A stretch of 64,000 nt of DNA, from NCBI GenBank assembly GCA_905221615.1, contig CAJNDT010003835.1:425793-489792 (forward strand). The letters are read 5' to 3'. The notes beneath the pieces were generated by a model that was not told the origin of the DNA, made no database searches, and worked only from the letters and a program-made list of their open reading frames with translations. Shown one piece after another: positions 204-63,299 of the stretch; the stretch's first letter is position 1, and each line of letters starts with the position of its first letter. Source of the stretch: Symbiodinium sp. CCMP2592 (lineage: Eukaryota; Sar; Dinophyceae; Suessiales; Symbiodiniaceae). The position numbers were made by a program, and so were the translations under genes.

Positions 204-316
204 CCCAGAGATTCCGATATCCCTTAATCAAGGAATATTCATTAGATTATATATAGTAGGATCCCTAATATGATTTAAGGAATATTCCTTAATTCAGGGA
301 TATTGGAGTCTCTGGG
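204..316. mobile_element. IE-A copy
   Basis: Inverted ends: CCCAGAGATTCCGATATCCC and GGGATATTGGAGTCTCTGGG. AT-rich centre with repeated TTAAGGAATATTCC. No coding capacity. Confidence 0.8.
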
Positions 317-8798: not shown

Positions 8799-9871
8799 GA
8801 GGCATTGTGGCAAGCGATAAATGCGATCATCAAACTCGTGAACCTTCTTCTTACGACGGCGGCGGTTGGATTTACCGTTCTTGCATGCTGAGCCACTGAG
8901 CAACTCAAGGTGAATTATTGTCTTACTGTTGTTACGTGTACTCTGTACTCCCCGTTCTGGCTGATTCTGGCTGGTTATGGTGCTGACTGGCTTTTCATCG
9001 TTGTTTATTGAACTATTGACGTTGGCTGTTGATGTTTTGCGGTTCGGATGGATACGTGTCGACTGATTTGTGTTCCTTGGGGTCTTCCAGGTTATCGTGG
9101 CTCGCTTCGTTCTGCTTCACCTAGCAGTGGCGCGTATTTCTTTGCCACTGTGGGCTCGGCGATGCTCTTGGGTTCGCCGGGGTTGAATCTTAACATGCGG
9201 CTTCAGACAGTAAGGGAACTTCACAGACATTAGCTCAGTGTATGGAGACCTCACGGAACGGACCCTCCATATTTGGAAGCCCCCAAAAGCAGAGTTGGCC
9301 TTGACTTCGGGTTTCCACGATTAGCGCGACATGTACACTCACAAAAAATGCTCAGGAGCCCTATACACACACTCACCGAAATCGTTATAAACCCGAAACT
9401 GCCCAAAATCCTAAGCAAGCAGGCAGAGGTCTTGATGTCGGAGGCCAGCGGCAATGTCTTCGCACCCTCGGTTGCAAGGAACAGGAGTGCGAAGTGTCTT
9501 TTTGGAACATCCTTTCAATCTTCTAGCCCTGCACCACCTTACCATAAGGCCTCCGCTATAGCCCTATAGCGCTTACGACTATGAGCCCTCTACATAAAGC
9601 CAAAAGCCTGATGAGGAAACCTTTCGTAGACCTTGCAGCGCCTTTGACAGTACCTTGAAGCAACCAAAACCCTGAACAACCTAATCCATTTAATTGTTAA
9701 CCAAGACCTACATACAGCGCGGACCCTCGAAGCCAAATTGAAATCTTGATAGAGCTTTGTAAACACCTTAAACCCTAGCCCCTAAACCCCTTAAGCCTCG
9801 CACGGCTTGTCCGAGTGTGCGCGCCGAAACTCCTCAACCCAAATAACCCTTGTAGAATTCCCTTGCTAAAC

Positions 9872-9983
9872 CCGGAGAGCCCAATATCCCTTAATTCAGG
9901 AATATAGCTTAAATCATAATTTGAACCCCCTTATAGTTGAAGGTAATTATATTCCTTAATTAAGGGGTATTGGGCTCTCTGGG
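9872..9983. mobile_element. IE-B copy just before the channel S4 exon
   Basis: Ends CCGGAGAGCCCAATATCCC and GGTATTGGGCTCTCTGGG. Ends 24 bases before the S4 exon. Confidence 0.8.
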
Positions 9984-23800: not shown

Positions 23801-24404
23801 ATGGTGCTCGGAAAGTGCAAGTATGGTTGTAACGGGTTGTAACTACCCTTGTATTTTGGGGGAAATCTCGCTATGAGCAAAATTTCAACGTCTATCACCC
23901 ACTAAGTCTCGTGATGATTGAAGTAGAACGCAATGTACGCAGTGTGCGTATTTGTGGCATCCCAGAGACTCCAATACCCCTTAACTAGGGAATATTCTTT
24001 AAATCAGATTAGGGATCCGACTATAATTTAAGGTATATTCCCTGATTAAGGGATATTGGAGTCTCTGGCATTTACATTGAACGAGGGATCGGCCTGACTT
24101 GGCGTATTGCCTTTTGCCATCGTGTTGGGTCTGGTCACATGTTGTACAGCCCCGAAGAGCTGAACCATATCCACACATATAGATAGATAGATATACAGCA
24201 GTGTGTATATATATATACATATGTATGATATAATATTTCTATTACTATATCAGGGTTTTTGATATGTAAAGCGGCAGTGCTTACCTTCATTTTGTTATCT
24301 CAGACTCGGGCACCGTGGAGCGCGACGAGTTCATCCAACCGCTTAGCCGGTGGGTACACGAGTCCAAGCGCCACGGCGAGAAGTTTGCGCTTTCGATGCT
24401 CTAA
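10008..24404 (+). CDS. Voltage-gated cation channel with C-terminal EF-hands (5' part not found)
   Basis: Exons placed by frame and family logic: 10008-10059 and 10982-11024 (S4, Arg every third residue, VMRIARIAR and LLKLFRRFSYLKEW), 11925-12002 and 12335-12373 (S5), 18067-18118 (pore, AGDSWGRIAVPVIE), 19038-19094 and 19511-19537 (S6), 20055-20105 and 20284-20330 (DTFAEAREKDV, acidic linker), 21232-21263 and 22160-22203 (EF-hand DEDGSGELTLSE), 23017-23061, 23540-23579 and 24304-24404 (second EF-hand DTDDSGTVERDE; stop TAA at 24402). Most junctions keep phase with AG acceptors and GC, GT or GA donors. S1-S3 and the extracellular loop between S5 and the pore were not located; 12374-18066 may hide a loop exon. 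By family it should pass Ca2+ or Na+ across a membrane under voltage control, with Ca2+ sensing at the C-terminus. Selectivity cannot be read. Confidence 0.85.
10424..10530. repeat. (TA)n microsatellite in a channel intron
   Basis: TA/TATATG repeats between the two S4 exons. Confidence 0.95.
10782..10890. mobile_element. IE-C copy with CATGT duplication
   Basis: GGGAGTTTCCGAAAATAGGG left end, inverse right end. CATGTGG flanks both sides. Within a channel intron. Confidence 0.85.
10903..10978. mobile_element. Short IE-B copy at a channel intron end
   Basis: A compact 76-bp IE-B. Its right end runs directly into the AAG acceptor of channel exon 10982-11024. Confidence 0.8.
11450..11540. mobile_element. 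IE-F-related copy in a channel intron
   Basis: CCAGGGCTCCTTATCATAG left and TTTTTGAGGCCCCCGGGG right, same core order as IE-F. Confidence 0.6.
12139..12240. mobile_element. IE-D copy in a channel intron
   Basis: CTACCCATAGACCCCGTAG left, CTATGGGCTCTATGGGTAG right; inner arms AGTTCCTTTTTGGG and CCCAAAAAGGAACT. In the intron between 12002 and 12335. Confidence 0.85.
13863..13960. mobile_element. IE-D copy
   Basis: TACCCATAGGCCCCATAGTA left; inner AGTTCCTTTTTGGG and CCCAAAAAGGAACTAC arms. In the long intron that holds the DUF2306 gene. Confidence 0.8.
14429..15106 (+). CDS. DUF2306-type multi-pass membrane protein, nested in a channel intron
   Basis: An intronless frame of 225 codons from the ATG at 14429. 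The open frame continues upstream to 14267 but without another ATG. Six hydrophobic segments are visible, around residues 7-28, 53-72, 90-105, 115-138, 150-170 and 175-200. A conserved HRWAGRVY motif (residues 84-91) is the hallmark I associate with the DUF2306 family of predicted membrane proteins, whose function is unknown to me. The gene lies on the same strand between channel exons 12335-12373 and 18067-18118. A host gene cut every 30-100 coding bases around an intact 678-base gene suggests late insertion, probably as a retrocopy. No clear leader relic precedes it. Confidence 0.75.
   Translation: MAYRAVNGFFVGGAVLIALYSWAVYGALTEWLIPLGRAVHPDMEAAFVTEKASIYLHALTSATALAIGPFQVIPSFRRTHMFAHRWAGRVYFLCGTMGSVTGGIVAMKAQGGVVGQVGFMCLSVAWTLSNMIGFAAIAFPKIRSVPVHERAMQISCALAYSAVSLRIMLPVAILTEFQPVYGAIAWLCWTVNLVVLEFIRCYFLDTSANNATPKIVTLEPAETSA
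15627..15729. mobile_element. IE-F copy downstream of the DUF2306 gene
   Basis: TAGGGGCCTTAATAATTACC left, GATTGAGGCCCCTATA right. Confidence 0.85.
16765..17385. repeat. Composite repeat block with a large inverted array
   Basis: Units of CGCTTGAAAATACCAATCG and CCGCTAGGTTTTT flank a central array. At 17011-17075 the array runs TTCACAGAATTTCACAGG; at 17076-17190 it runs in the inverse sense, GTGAAGATCTGTGAAATTC, giving a near-perfect hairpin centred at about 17077. In a channel intron. Confidence 0.85.
17395..17484. mobile_element. IE-F copy, left end trimmed
   Basis: The core GGTACCTATACTATTTTGGG and right end GTTATTGGCGCCCCTATA match IE-F. Confidence 0.7.
18471..18580. mobile_element. IE-H copy in a channel intron
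   Basis: GCAGGTTCATGGTTAGTTA left, AACTACCCATGAACCTCC right. Confidence 0.8.
18671..18777. mobile_element. IE-L copy in a channel intron
   Basis: GTGAGTAGGCAACCTTTAACC left; right end CCCCATGATACCCCGACAAG. A near-identical arrangement occurs at 37034-37140. Confidence 0.7.
19511..19537 (+). other. 27-nt microexon of the channel (S6)
   Basis: An AG acceptor at 19509-19510 is followed by nine codons (VLNLIVAVV) and a GC donor at 19538. It fits exactly between LTLVFG (ends 19094) and VDTFAEA (starts 20055), in phase 0 on both sides. Confidence 0.8.
19588..19698. mobile_element. IE-E copy in a channel intron
   Basis: GTCTCCGTTGTAGTCCC left and ACTACAACGGAGACTATAGG right. In the intron after the 27-nt microexon. 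Confidence 0.8.
20700..20960. repeat. TA, AG and CATATA microsatellites in a channel intron
   Basis: Runs of TATA, AGAGAG and TACATA repeats before exon 21232. Confidence 0.9.
21051..21203. mobile_element. IE-D copy with two left ends
   Basis: AGAGGCTCCATAGCAGTTCC at 21057 and again AGAGGCTCCATAGTAGTTCC at about 21115, sharing one right end (GGAACTACAATGGAGCC). Looks like partial duplication or nesting, in the channel intron before 21232. Confidence 0.75.
23178..23273. mobile_element. IE-F-like copy
   Basis: GGGGCTTTAGAATTAG left and CTAGTTATTTAGCCCCC right, AT-rich core. In a channel intron, preceded by another partial copy at about 23091-23160. Confidence 0.65.
23961..24069. mobile_element. 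IE-A copy in the last channel intron
   Basis: Same ends as 204-316 (CCCAGAGACTCCAATA...ATTGGAGTCTCTGG). Lies in the intron between channel exons 23540-23579 and 24304-24404. Confidence 0.8.
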
Positions 24405-36329: not shown

Positions 36330-36424
36330 TTTGGTGCTTAGTAGGGAATGGGGGAAAGGATCCCTATGGTAGTCCCTATATCATCCCCAAGAAGAATCCA
36401 TTCCCCCATTCCCTCCTAAGCACC
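36330..36424. mobile_element. IE-K-related element
   Basis: TGGTGCTTAGTAGGGAATGG left, CCATTCCCTCCTAAGCACCA right. Shares TAGTAGGGAATGG with IE-K but has different outer ends. Confidence 0.75.
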
Positions 36425-37033
36425 AGGGAGCCAAAGGGTATGCTCGGGTTCTAGGGGCTATTATCACTGTGGTACAAGGGCTCTTGTACTATTTTGGGGG
36501 ATGGGTTCTTATCACTGCGGTATGGGAATTCCTGTAAGGGTCTATATACTTCTAACAGTATTCTGTGGGGGGTTCCGTATCACTGTCCTATAAGAGTTTT
36601 TGCAAGGGTTCTAGGGGCAGGCGTTTCGTCGTTCAGGGCTTTAGGGGTGTTCAGATTATCTTCGGAGGAGCTTAGCATTCAGAGTTCCGTTCAGAGGTCT
36701 AGGGGGGAAGTTCCATTATTGTGCAGGTTTAGGGGCTGATGGAAGGGGTTCGGGATGTAATGAGCGTGATGTAGATAAATCTTTTGCAAATGCCAGTGAC
36801 TGCTGATGTGGGAATCTTCGTTCAGGATTTGATACGCAATAGCACTGTTCGGACTATATAGATCTATAGACATACACTAGACCCATAGAGTGGCGTGTTG
36901 GGAAAGCGCCAAGGGTGTTGAGTTCAGCGCATTTTAGGTTTGGGGCGCAAAGTTGTCGGAGAAGCTAGTTCCAGCAGTTGGGGGGTTCGGCGCTTGGGTG
37001 CAAGCTGAGGGGGTGGCTTACTTTAAATCCTAG

Positions 37034-37140: not shown

Positions 37141-37255
37141 AAATGGAGGGCATTGCCAGTAGTGGGATGGAGCGGGTGTGTAGCACAATCGTGAGACACG
37201 GCAGGTCTCCGGAAAGGGTGGGATGCTGGCTGACTCATGAACCCTCAACCCTAAA

Positions 37256-37346
37256 CTTACCGTTGGTTAGTAGGGAATGGAAGAATGGTAGTAATAGTAG
37301 TTATAGTTGTACCCGATTCCTCCATTCCCTACTAACCAAAGGTAAG
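37256..37346. mobile_element. IE-K copy
   Basis: CTTACCGTTGGTTAGTAGGG left, CCCTACTAACCAAAGGTAAG right. Same family as RND intron 3. Confidence 0.88.
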
Positions 37347-37378
37347 TCAACCCTAAACCCTAAACCGTAGTCCCCGGC

Positions 37379-46100: not shown

Positions 46101-47714
46101 GAAGGATACTAGCCTATAGTCTCCATTGTAGTTCCTTTTTTGGTTTAACCAATTTTAGTTTTAAGGATCCTAGAAGGTAGCCCCCAAAAAGGAGCTACAA
46201 TGGAGACTATAGGTACTGTCTAAGGGTCCCTAAACCCTAAACCAGTCGTGAGTGCTGACACCCTTCATCTGCGAAGCTGCCTTCAACTCTTGCATCGACG
46301 TCACCTTCCGTGCTAAGTCTTAAGTAGGAGGGGATAAACCCTAGCCCTTATAGACCCATTATACAGGAACTTCTGTTGAAATTTTTTGAGGCCCCTACAT
46401 TGCGGAACCCTCCTATGGATCCCCTATAGATCCCTTTTCAGCTTCGAAATTCAGGTCCCTTTCCTCTCTGAGACCCAGAACTCCAATATCCCTCAGTTAA
46501 GGAATATTCCTTAATTTATCTTAGGAATCCTACTATATAATTTAAGGAAGAACCCTTAATGAAGGAATATTCCTAAAATATTTTTTGGGATCCCTCATCT
46601 AATTTTCGGAATCTTCCTTAATGAAGGGATGTTGCAGTCTCTGGGAACTCAGAGGTTCAGGCCCTGGTCTCCACCGACGCGGCCATGCGGGGTCTCGATT
46701 TCAAGGACCTGACCCTCCACTAGCAGAACAAAGGGGTTTAAGGTGTAGGGATTAGAGTCTAGGGATTAGGAGTTAGGGGTTCAGGGTTTCCGTTTTGGGG
46801 TTCCTTGTCTTACCTCGATTTGGAGAACCATACTTGAATTCTTTTTTGGTACCTGCTCCTTCAGGGAACCATTATAAAATGACAGTCTATACTTTCTTCC
46901 CTTGTTACTTCAAAGTCCAGTCCACTAACAGAACAAACAAACGGAGAGATTTAGGGTTTTAGGGTTTAGGGCTTAGTATCAGCCGGTAGTGCTGCGCGTG
47001 GATCTAGGGCTTAGGGTTGGAGACCCTTCTTCCAACTTGGACCATTGGAGGCACATCAGAGAGACCTCGTTCAAACAGGAGACTCGTCTTTGCCTAAAGC
47101 CCTGCATAGGACCTGACTCACGTGGTGAATTTTGAGCTCCCGGGGGATGCTGCGACCTATGCGCATAGAGCCGGTCGTTGCGGCCGCATGGGCTTCAATG
47201 GCATCGTCGTGAGCCTAGCCTCGGGTGGCTATCAGAACCTGAGCTCCTTTAAGGGTTCTTTTTAAAGGGGTCTATAAGGGTTACTATAAGGGATCTATAA
47301 GGATGCTATAACGTAGGTGCCTACATAACTAATTATATTTTTTTTTTTTTGGGGGGGGGGGGCATCCTTATGGTAGTTACAGAATATGTAGTGGGCCCCT
47401 GAAACCCTATTCTAATTGTTAAGGCCCCGAAGGCCCCTTTCTGTCAGAACCTGAGTACACTCTTGGTGATAAGGTTACCCACTATAGACTACCGAAGGTT
47501 TACAGTGTTTCTGGCTTGTGAATTCAGCATAGAGCTGAAGTTTTACATTGTTTCTGGCTTGTGAATTCAGCAAGCAAGGAACAAGAGGTTGCGAAGTTAT
47601 GCCGACACCCTCAACTTCGAGCTTTTTGAGGCCAATGTCAACGAAGGTGTGCTGGGAGCGGATCTGAGCATGACCTATTCTCCGAGACTGCGGAACCAGA
47701 GTGTGCGACTCTAA
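43185..47714 (+). CDS. DEAD-box ATP-dependent RNA helicase, 12 exons
   Basis: Exons 43185-43259, 43534-43700, 44145-44246, 44602-44667, 44987-45045, 45217-45546, 45760-45881, 46016-46051, 46655-46705, 47110-47231, 47444-47465 and 47571-47714 join in frame to 431 residues. Motifs appear in order: Q-like [19 protein letters not shown]; Ia APGREL; Ib GTPGK; II DEVD (Ala replaced by Val); [37 protein letters not shown]. Both RecA-like domains are therefore complete, and the length fits a minimal helicase core. The expected role is ATP-driven RNA strand separation; the cellular target is unknown. Donors are mixed: GT, GC, one GA (46706) and one unresolved. Nearly every intron is flanked by a direct repeat and filled with inverted-repeat elements or telomere-like DNA. 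The start ATG 43185 is preceded by a possible acceptor (43181-43182), so an upstream exon remains possible. Confidence 0.9.
43770..44140. repeat. Tandem degenerate unit in helicase intron 2
   Basis: The block GTGGTAATGGTAACTCCAA/ACAAACTCCC plus CCCTAAACC is repeated about four times with copies of the GTCCGAGTGTGAGC repeat, filling the intron 43701-44144. Confidence 0.75.
44268..44384. mobile_element. IE-F copy in helicase intron 3
   Basis: TAGGGGCCAAAATATATTTG left, TTCTAAGTATTCAGGC right. Within intron 44247-44601. Confidence 0.75.
44822..44934. mobile_element. IE-G copy in helicase intron 4
   Basis: TTAGAAGCTGCCCCCACCC left with its inverse at the right: over 25 bp of near-perfect inverted repeat. 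Confidence 0.9.
45552..45640. mobile_element. IE-D copy in helicase intron 6
   Basis: AGGCCCCAAAGCAGTTCC left and GGAACTACTTTGGGGCC right, starting five bases after the GC donor at 45547. Confidence 0.85.
45648..45755. mobile_element. IE-M element, second element in helicase intron 6
   Basis: TTCCCCAGTAGTGCCC at the left is mirrored by GGGGCACTGGGGGAA at the right, with inner AGGGTAGTTGCCCTTA. Directly follows IE-D in the same intron. Confidence 0.7.
46055..46081. repeat. Perfect short palindrome at the start of helicase intron 8
   Basis: TCAGAAAACGGGT is followed at once by its inverse ACCCGTTTTCTGA. Could form a hairpin next to the donor at 46052. Confidence 0.75.
46113..46213. mobile_element. 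IE-E copy in helicase intron 8
   Basis: CCTATAGTCTCCATTGTAG left, CTACAATGGAGACTATAGG right: near-perfect 19-bp inverted ends. Confidence 0.9.
46474..46645. mobile_element. IE-A copy in helicase intron 8
   Basis: A longer IE-A copy with an internal duplication of the TTCCTTAAT motif. Its right end (GCAGTCTCTGGGA) lies ten bases before the exon at 46655. Confidence 0.75.
47339..47363. repeat. Poly-T/poly-G run in helicase intron 10
   Basis: A run of 13 or more T followed by 13 G. Lengths are likely to be unreliable in the assembly. Confidence 0.9.
47466..47570. mobile_element. Helicase intron 11: IE-J-related, internally duplicated
   Basis: A GT-AG intron of 105 bp. GTTTCTGGCTTGTGAATTCAG occurs twice in tandem at the right side; TTACCCACTATAG matches the IE-J core. 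Confidence 0.75.
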
Positions 47715-60173: not shown

Positions 60174-63100
60174 ATGGCTGAGGGCGCGAAAGATGTTGCA
60201 AAAGCAGCTTCCATTCCGAGGTCCTCATCCTCTCGCCGCATCCTGCAGATCGAGCGCACTTTGTCCAAGACGTCCACTGCGGTTAGCCACGCCCAGGAGC
60301 ACTTTTTCAGCCGCATCGCCCGGTGGATTGCAAGACGCCCTGTTGTCACCATCGCTGGGTGCCTGGCAGCCTTTCTGGCATGCATCCCAGGGATGCTTCT
60401 GCTAGATGGTTCTGAGAACATGTTCGGCTTCATCAAGATCATGGTGAACTTCATGGATACCTTTACGTTCACGACCACCGACGAGTACAAGGACTACAAA
60501 CGTGCGACGGCCATTTTCCCTGATACGCGAGGCCTTGTCTTCCTCGCAAAGCCTCTGGGAGGGCGGACAGTTGTATCATCGGATGTGATCCGACAGATGC
60601 ACAAGGCAGAGCTTCAGATCAGGGATCTAAGCCGATTCACGTCGGACGATGGACGAGAGTTGGGCTTCACGGATGTTTGTGAGAAGTTTAGCTCAGACTC
60701 GCCATGCATCACAGGGAGTGCCACGACCACGCTTCTTGGGACAGATGTCGCAACCCGCCTTTCCGAGCTCGAAGCACTCGAGAGGAATGCTAGCTTTACT
60801 GGCTCCGACGCTGCAATGTGGGTGGTTCAGGCTATGGGCATACAGCAACGGGCAGGCCTTCCGCTCGCCTTCGCTGCGCCATCCCCTTTCCCTGGGGCTG
60901 ATGCCGACGACCCGACTCTCAGTGAATGGCTCTCCCAAAGCAGTGCCGCTCAGTAGCTAAGTGGATACACTTTTTATATACACGGTTTGGGATCATATTA
61001 CCCACAATAGAACTGAAAGTGTTCACTTTTTGCGGCTTGTGAACTCAGCAACTAAGGCCGCCATGTCCAGCTTCACGCTGATAGACACCGAGGACGGCAT
61101 CCGCTTCGAGAAGCAGGCGGCGAAGGACATCAACGAGAACGGCTATCCCGAGAATGCGGTTGTGAGAATTAATCAGTTCCTGGACCCCAAAAAGTATGTA
61201 GAAGAGTAGCCTTTATAGGTATTTGACCATTATGTTGCTTACTTTGGGGGCTTGAGGTTCAGCTCTTCAACGATTGCGATGGAGAGTGTGCAGATTGGTA
61301 TGGACAACGTCCCGCTCATAGCAGTCACCCTGTTCCTCATGGCAGGCTACGTGGTGCTCATGCTGGGCACCGACACTCGGATCCCGGGAAACTCCCAGAT
61401 AAAGCTGCTCTTGGGAGCAACTTGCATTCCAGCTTTGTCCGGGTTGGCCAGCTTTGGCCTCTTGGGATACTTTGGGCTTGGGATGACCGTCTTAGGGACC
61501 ATGGTGCCTTTCTTGGGTCTGGCCGTTGGCGTTGATATCATTTTCCTGCTGGTCTCCTCCGTGAACGCTGTGGGCCCGGACGTGAAGGACATGGAAGAAG
61601 TCATGGTGAGAGCTCTTCCCCGTGGGGGCGTTGCAGCAACTACACTTACCTTTGGTTAGTAGGGAATGGAAGAATGGTAGTAATGGTTATAACAGTAGTT
61701 ATAATTCTACCCCATCCCTCCATTCCCTACTAACCAAAGGCAACTACAACAACCTTGACATCCGTCTCTGCATTCACCATTGCCGCGGCCACCAGCACTG
61801 ATCTTCCCGGCTTCCTCTCCTTCAACCTTGGTCTTGTCATGGTCCCTATAGTCTCCTTAGGAATTACTTTTTTGTGTTTTTGTTCATATAGAAATCCCAA
61901 GAGAATTACATAATAGTTTAGTATGGTTCAAAGGGGGGTATAGGTCCTTATCCTCAACTGGATCGGCATGCTCATCATGCTCCCGGCCATGATCACGCTG
62001 AACCAACGCAACATGATCGCACGGGAGGAGCCGCAAAGTGGTTTCGGGGCACAGGCGCGAGTTGTCATGGGAGGCGGACGCAAACTGAGGGCCTTGATGA
62101 ATGCCAAGCTCGGTGAAGCCGTAGAGCGCAGTCTGCCCTTCCAAATCTGCGGGGCCTCCGTATGGTTAGTACTTACCATTCTTGGCATCTACTTTGGGCT
62201 GCAGGTGGGGCGAGGCATGCCGGATACCTACTTCGTGACCGATTCCTCTAAGGTGCACGGCTACTTGGAGGATGTCCAAAGCTCCTTCGTGGGCAGTGTG
62301 CCCATGGAGCTTGGTCTGGTTTTCGATGCACCGAAGGTTCTTGATGCCTCCTACAGGAGTCGCATGTCCGACTTGGTTGCCGCACTGAACAACAGATCGG
62401 ATGTTGCCTTGCCCGTTGATTGTTGGCTCCATCGTGCAGTCGGCGCTTTGAGCCCTTCAGCATCGATGTGCGAGGTGGACACCGCCGTTCTCACGTACCT
62501 GAACGATACCAACACGGGCTTGGTGAGTGCTCGGGACTCCTCCGGTGGTATAACCGACCATCTGCAAGCAGCCCGGTGTCGCGTTTTTCTCTGGCAGCCC
62601 ACGGACTCAGGGAAGCGCAGTGAGCAGGCGCTCGACGTCATCAGCCAGGTGAAGGATGGCTTCCCAGAGCTGAAGGTCATCCCATACCACCTGAGCTTCC
62701 CAAGCCAAACCGCGCGATACAGAATCATCAAGGATAAGACCTTCAGCACGGCCGGGTTTGCTTTCGTCGGTGTCTTCCTTGCTGTGCTGATCACCATGCC
62801 CGTTCACCTCGCCTTCATGGCGGTCGGCAATGTCATGGCGGTAACGTGTGTCTTGTTCGGCTTCATGTATGCCTGCGGCATCACTTGCAATGTCATTTCC
62901 TACAGCGTCTGCGTCATGGCCATCGGTTTCTGTGTCGACTACAGCTGCCACATCGTGCACTTTGCCGAACATGGCGTGGAGCCAGGAACCCCTTGGGACA
63001 AGCGAATGCGGCACTCACTCGAAGCCTGCAGCTTTGACGTCATGCAGGGATGTTCAACAGCCTTCCTTGGTGTGGCCATGCTTGGCTTTGGCTCCGCCGA

Positions 63101-63299
63101 GGCATTCCGTATTTTTGCTCTACTTGCGGTAGTCATCACGCTTGTCGGTGGCTTCTTCGCACTGATCGGCCTGCCTTGCTTGTTGGCTCTCCTCTCGAGG
63201 GCCTTCCGTGCCTGTGCTAGCTCTGAGGCTGAGAAGGAGGCTGAGATGCCCGAGACGGGCACTGACATTCGCCTTTCCTTCGAGCAGTTCTCAGTGTAG
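60174..63299 (+). CDS. Patched/RND-family protein with sterol-sensing domain, five exons
   Basis: Exons 60174-60944, 61057-61193, 61257-61635, 61740-61841 and 61944-63299 give 914 residues. TM1 (VVTIAGCLAAFLACIPGMLL, around residue 60) precedes a long lumenal domain. A cluster of hydrophobic helices from about 315 to 475 forms the sterol-sensing region, with GVDIIFLL near 394 where the family usually has GVDDxF. A second lumenal loop is followed by the C-terminal bundle, with GFCVDYSCHIVHF near 791, a Patched-family signature. Expected role: proton- or ion-coupled lipid or sterol export or transport; the substrate is unknown. Three of the four introns (60945, 61636, 61842) are element-derived. 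Exon 3 could instead start at 61263, also in frame. The ATG at 60174 gives the usual short cytosolic N-terminus. Confidence 0.9.
60945..61056 (+). mobile_element. Intron 1 of the RND gene: IE-J introner (GC-AG)
   Basis: The exon repeat GCCGC occurs at both ends (60945 and 61057). The intron begins GCCGC and ends CTAAG, 112 bp, phase 0, between SQSS and AAMSS. Its body matches the IE-J copy at 52738-52843, including ...CAGCAACTAAG at the right end. Confidence 0.85.
61636..61739 (+). mobile_element. Intron 3 of the RND gene: IE-K introner (GC-AG)
   Basis: The nine bases GCAACTACA occur at 61636 and again at 61740. Between them lies an element with near-perfect inverted ends (CCTTTGGTTAGTAGGGAATGG and its inverse without the last base). 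Removing 61636-61739 rejoins VA to ATTTLT in phase 0, with a GC donor inside the left repeat and AAAG as acceptor. Same family as 37256-37346. Confidence 0.92.
61842..61943 (+). mobile_element. Intron 4 of the RND gene: divergent IE-E-like introner (GT-AG)
   Basis: GGTCC flanks both sides. The intron starts GTCCCTATAGTCTCC, resembling the IE-E left end, and ends GGTATAG. 102 bp, phase 0; rejoins LVM to VLILNW. Confidence 0.75.

Follow-up and report, generated by a model that had tools for sequence, protein, structure and literature searches.

An intron probably gained by insertion of a MITE-like inverted-repeat element in a Patched-like gene of Symbiodinium sp. CCMP2592

An intron of a Patched/NPC1-like sterol-sensing gene in Symbiodinium sp. 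CCMP2592 appears to have been made, almost in its entirety, by a short mobile element, here called K. The intron lies within a 64,000-nucleotide stretch of contig CAJNDT010003835.1 (positions 425,793 to 489,792; hereafter the window). The best explanation, to which a probability of roughly three in four can be assigned, is that K inserted with duplication of the four bases TACA, that a GC located upstream of the duplicated bases serves as the splice donor, and that the tail of the element refills the exon.

In a first-pass annotation of the window, a 104-bp piece was described as edged on both sides by a 9-bp repeat and as restoring a Patched-family frame upon removal. The repeat is present (GCAACTACA, at 61636–61644 and 61740–61748), and cutting out 61636–61739 joins ...RGGVA in frame to ATTTTLTSVSAF..., although the junction quoted in that annotation, VA/ATTTLT, is one Thr too short. 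Keeping the piece in produces stop codons. With a 9-bp repeat, ten placements of the excised piece are possible, and direct reading of the sequence showed that only the GC...AG placement pairs a GT, GC, or GA donor with an AG acceptor. Restoration of the domain was also evident in the Pfam comparisons, the sterol-sensing score being 64.6 bits for the spliced product versus 42.5 for the upstream piece translated as far as its stop, and the Patched SSD score 52.9 versus 38.4. Furthermore, the match of the spliced protein to NPC1-type proteins of solved structure crosses the junction in the three alignments printed, and the frame downstream of the intron is open for 451 codons. The coordinates of the features are collected in Table 1.

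Table 1. Features of the Patched-like gene and of element K in the window (positions are those of the window).
Feature	Position	Strand	Basis or remark
Second K copy, intact tail GGTAAG	37256..37346	+	11-bp flanking repeat TCAACCCTAAA
Exon upstream of K intron, first part of sterol-sensing/Patched domain	61219..61635	+	Open frame; Pfam PF12349, PF02460; 5' limit provisional
Inferred intron, GC...AG, 104 bp	61636..61739	+	Sole length-neutral placement among donors 61600–61649; missing at 5/5 related loci
GCAAC, exon bases that probably became part of the intron and include the GC donor	61636..61640	+	GCAAC at same exon position in L050 and L051
Probable target duplication TACA, left copy	61641..61644	+	4-bp register from family
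Element K, CTTACC...CCAAAGGCAAC	61645..61744	+	Compared with 43, then 80 full-length copies
Left inverted arm	61649..61677	+	
Right inverted arm, containing TACTAAC and putative acceptor AAAG	61712..61740	+	
Exon downstream of K intron, 102 nt, in phase	61740..61841	+	
GCAAC, tail of element K (G[T/C]AAG in the family), probably replacing the lost exon bases in the mRNA	61740..61744	+	Tail counts
Probable target duplication TACA, right copy	61745..61748	+	
Next inferred intron of the Patched-like gene, GT...AG, resembling an element (CTATAGTC...GGTATAG)	61842..61943	+	Removal keeps frame
Last long exon of Patched-like gene, with stop	61944..63299	+	

A six-frame search of the same genome with the upstream exon found five related loci besides the window's own, and all five read through the position of the K intron without it. 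Two of these, the paralogs L050 and L051, show 81–82% protein identity to the window gene over the upstream exon and align with the spliced window DNA at 79% over 467–468 nt, continuing without a gap across the junctions of both the K intron and the next intron. The L050 alignment is wholly gap-free, and L051 has two one-base gaps, both well upstream of the junctions. Where the spliced window has GCAGCAACTACAACA, GCAGCAACGACCACG stands in the exon of L050, and L051 has the same bases. At three more distant loci, 26–27% identical over a longer alignment, neither junction shows a gap. Since the intron is missing at all five related loci, that at 61636–61739 appears to have been gained, with the window copy representing the derived state. 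For this one well-polarised intron gain, a single genome supplies the site with the insertion, five relatives without it, the element family, and the length of its duplication.

The element belongs to a large multicopy family. The assembly searched comprises 1.098 Gb in 5,383 contigs, in which the terminal inverted-repeat (TIR) 25-mer of K occurs exactly 4,865 times, both ends counted, with no occurrence of a control pattern. Of 1,513 candidates in the genome search with K, 40 places were scored; the first 39 loci fetched with their flanks are these places minus the window's own, and hence those most similar to the window copy. From 49 matches, 43 full-length copies were kept, including the two in the window, and six partial ones were dropped. 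A later set of 47 loci was chosen for GY, GYAAS, or GYNN patterns, which biases the composition of their duplications, and 24 rows were dropped before the count of 80 copies given below. In the 43 copies, the consensus is CTTACCTTTGGTTAGTAGGGAATGG ... CCATTCCCTACTAACCAAAGG(T/C)AAG with a length of 91–110 bp, and the four-base tail is TAAG in 28, CAAG in 9 (37 of 43 together), and another sequence in 6. Near the 3' end, CCAAAGG is found in 39 of 43 copies and TACTAAC likewise in 39, or in 35 with the element in the reverse orientation. Short length, inverted ends, a short duplication, and high copy number identify K as a short non-autonomous DNA transposon of the MITE-like kind. Its inverted ends, put at about 20 bp in the first-pass annotation, are longer in the window copy, where one comparison put the arms at 32 nt and 91% complementarity and another at 29 nt, of which 27 match. 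The second copy reported at 37256–37346 does exist, and K is mobile as had been argued from it, on the strength of the family-wide duplications more than of that single copy some 37 kb into the window. The claim that a mobile inverted-repeat element has become a whole intron is likewise borne out by the insertion-free related loci, the restored domain, and the size of the family.

Several wider searches were also performed. An inverted-repeat scan of the window gave 64 pairs, some of them redundant or simple-repeat, and none in each of five block-shuffled windows. No exact match to the TIR 18-mer was found in a viral contig collection; a single match in prokaryote contigs, in a cyanobacterial MAG, was discarded, the rest of the element being absent there. 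Neither an Rfam search of the window at the gathering threshold nor a tRNA scan of it returned any hit. The assembly contains 429 exact copies of the 21-base dinoflagellate spliced-leader sequence and none of a control pattern, which marks it as that of a dinoflagellate. In addition, an inverted-repeat element at 36332–36425 of the window has the core CTTAGTAGGGAATGG in common with K and different ends, and is perhaps a sister family.

The length of the target duplication was read from the family. Around CTTACC...GG(T/C)AAG, 24 of the 43 closest copies carry an exact 4-bp duplication, versus 2.1 expected from shuffled pairing. The four bases before CTTACC agree with those after the tail in 30–32 of 43 copies at each position, and the next four positions in 3–12. 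In all, with the later pattern-picked copies included, the duplication is exact in 43 of 80 copies and absent as such in 37. The window copy's target duplication is therefore most likely TACA rather than nine bases, TACA being an exact 4-bp match in the family register. In this register the GCAAC at 61740–61744 aligns with the element end G(T/C)AAG. Three details of the first-pass annotation would thereby change: the nine repeat bases would not all be target duplication; the GC donor, which it had taken to be target sequence duplicated on insertion, would belong to the exon and lie outside the duplication; and AAAG, the acceptor, which it had placed at the element's end, would lie 5 nt inside the element. 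Indeed, TACA itself contains no GT, GC, or GA, and the donor lies 5 nt upstream of the duplication.

A true 9-bp duplication, in which K entered with its right end shortened (CCAAAG) and GCAACTACA became duplicated, making the GC donor part of the duplicated target, is an unlikely reading, even though the repeat is exact. Such an event would require an unusual duplication length, the loss of 5 nt from the element's end, and a target that happened to resemble the lost tail GGCAA, in addition to a departure from the 4-bp norm of the family. Long repeats do occur, with three of the 80 copies having intact ends flanked by exact repeats of 11, 14, or 15 bp and not 4 bp (L031:2438–2528, L078 near 460, and window 37245–37357), and a 12-bp repeat entering the tail at L058. 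We favour the 4-bp reading by about four to one, as a matter of judgement and not as a computed ratio. More generally, a direct repeat at the borders can exceed the true target duplication where exon and element tail are alike, a point of importance whenever transposition is inferred from repeats of this kind.

Two of the copies with long repeats were followed further. At L031, a search for an empty site of the 14-bp repeat showed the flanking repeat family to be diverged at the junction, and for the other three copies in the same query no empty site was found among the matches listed. At L058, near 460, the K tail CCAACGGCAAG departs from the family toward the sequence upstream of the duplication, yielding the 12-bp repeat, possibly through gene conversion or altered end joining. 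This locus was set aside as a second example of likeness between tail and exon: its 12 bp are real, but it had been chosen for the GCAAG there and is thus not independent support.

On the preferred reading, the insertion with TACA duplication, one copy of K would have entered an exon of the sterol-sensing gene, and the donor recognised by the spliceosome would be the pre-existing GC, 5 nt ahead of the duplicated TACA. The acceptor would be AAAG, 5 nt before the K 3' end, with TACTAAC just ahead of it. TACTAAC is a classical branch-point sequence, and here just a few bases separate it from AAAG, an unusually short distance to an acceptor. That splicing occurs, which donor it uses, and the branch point are in this case deduced from the DNA. 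The intron would remove the five exon bases GCAAC, for which the last five bases of K (G[T/C]AAG in the family, GCAAC here) would substitute; because five exon bases go out and five element bases come in, the spliced mRNA would keep its length and codons. A single G-to-C change in the K tail (GCAAG to GCAAC) probably occurred, after which the mRNA sequence would be unchanged as well. The match between exon and tail is partly expected, since a usable donor and the tail both resemble G(T/C)AAG, and the remainder is coincidence or selection on the codon. Folding of 61626–61759 as RNA gave a hairpin of −55.3 kcal/mol, versus a mean of −28.2 for 200 shuffles (z −8.3), and such a long hairpin in the transcript would bring both intron ends together. 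Element and intron would thus be the same piece of DNA except for a few bases that come from the target or the tail, and the window copy of K appears to behave as an introner.

Splicing from a donor farther upstream (the GT at 61606 or 61630, or a different site in frame), with loss of residues from the protein, seems quite improbable. Donors at 61600, 61606, 61612, 61630, and 61633 are in frame with the AAAG at 61739 and would drop 12, 10, 8, 2, and 1 codons, respectively, and that at 61606 reads ATG/GTGAGA, which better fits the consensus. However, full length is kept at all five related loci, and among donors from 61600 to 61649 only 61636 preserves that length; moreover, GC and GA donors are described as common in dinoflagellates (PMC7789003). 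That K merely interrupts a decayed gene and remains unspliced is very improbable: splicing is deduced here from continuity of frame and domain, but the downstream frame stays open, the domain is whole once the piece is cut out, and the same reasoning also takes a second element-like intron cleanly out of this gene.

This second intron, at 61842–61943, is likely another inserted-element intron, of an element type other than K. It carries a 4-bp duplication, GTCC, at 61842–61845 and 61944–61947, its GT donor falls within that duplication while its acceptor coincides with the element end, and it is missing at the same five related loci. The arrangement follows the pattern of the Symbiodinium microadriaticum introners (PMC9860276, Fig. 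2B legend). Other families of about 75–170 bp with long inverted ends also occur in the window (204–316, 9871–9983, 23962–24068, 46500–46574, and others), among them families beginning CCCAGAGA..., GGGGTTTCCGAAAATAGG..., CCTATAGTCTCC..., and CTTAGAAGCTGCCCCC...; their duplications are mostly ambiguous.

For the K family at large, the evidence leans towards a MITE that has only now and then become a whole intron. Among 84 copies, 55 combinations of orientation and register have an open frame across a GT-, GC-, or GA-donor junction, the window copy accounting for two of these. Twenty of the 55 were run against Pfam with no matches, a search that would miss genes without Pfam domains, and on this footing no second convincing whole-intron copy was found among the 84. 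Duplications starting with GT or GC number 296 of 4,865, about half the one eighth that equal base use would give; at the position 5 nt upstream, either dinucleotide is found in 590 of 4,865, about the chance level. Because the donor-like GYAAS is not enriched 5 nt upstream of the duplication (12 of 4,865, below the approximately 19 expected at equal base use), a general upstream-donor route finds no support. The window copy suggests that a transposon family whose duplications seldom start with GT or GC may still occasionally make an intron by borrowing an outside donor. At L100 (minus strand, approximately 620–260), a K copy adjoins what by eye looks like a coding exon, VYWEAFEVEQFPVQDSMKYY, and AAAG/GTAAGT there could be a zero-length exon; this copy gave no Pfam match, and it was rejected as a further K intron, its duplication being mismatched and the exon borders ambiguous.

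A tentative and rather doubtful extension is that the ends of K are composite splice modules, consisting of TACTAAC, AAAG, and then G[T/C]AAG, which yield seamless introns from a resident donor 5 nt upstream. The two ends being inverted copies of each other, the same outward-facing 3' module would be presented in either orientation; AAAG/GTAAGT, its last T often supplied by the duplication, is complete in 18 of the 43 copies read in one direction and in 32 of 43 read in the other. If so, the donor-like tail would re-supply the exon bases taken by the new intron, transposon bases would become codons, and within longer introns K could serve as a ratchet-like (recursive) splice point.

With respect to known systems, MITEs in general have a short constant duplication and long inverted ends and are too short to encode a transposase. 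K, likewise too short to code for one, resembles them in its 91–110 bp, long inverted ends, short constant duplication, and thousands of genomic ends, and would differ in that its ends resemble a 3' splice-site module in either orientation. The introners of Amoebophrya are described as having hairpin-capable inverted repeats and direct repeats of 3–5 nt over the exon–intron borders, with many introns being strain-specific (Farhat et al., 2021; PMC7789003). K is like them in its inverted repeats, short border direct repeats, and dinoflagellate lineage, whereas Amoebophrya introns with their 3–5-nt repeats are mostly non-canonical and the K intron is GC...AG. Introns of Prorocentrum cordatum are reported to be rich in introner elements, found there by a pattern search for inverted repeats together with 3–5-nt direct repeats (Dougan et al., 2023; PMC10666404); by description only, K can be likened to these in having inverted repeats at both intron ends in a dinoflagellate. 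A survey of five dinoflagellate genomes reported recent introner activity in four of the five species, with many families, and 12,253 introner-made introns in Polarella (Roy et al., 2023, as cited in PMC11453091), and K may already be among those families.

A further close comparison is with the published introners of Symbiodinium microadriaticum. These are described as having a 4-bp target duplication and inverted ends, and as carrying the 3' splice site while the 5' site comes from the duplication; recruitment of splice sites from neighbouring exon sequence is also mentioned (Gozashti et al., 2022; PMC9860276). K shares the 4-bp duplication, the inverted ends, the element-carried 3' splice site, and a 5' site on the target side, but differs in that its 5' site would lie not in the duplication but 5 nt upstream, with the tail refilling the exon. 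Overall, transposon-made introns are of an already known kind, of which the window copy of K is a good single example.
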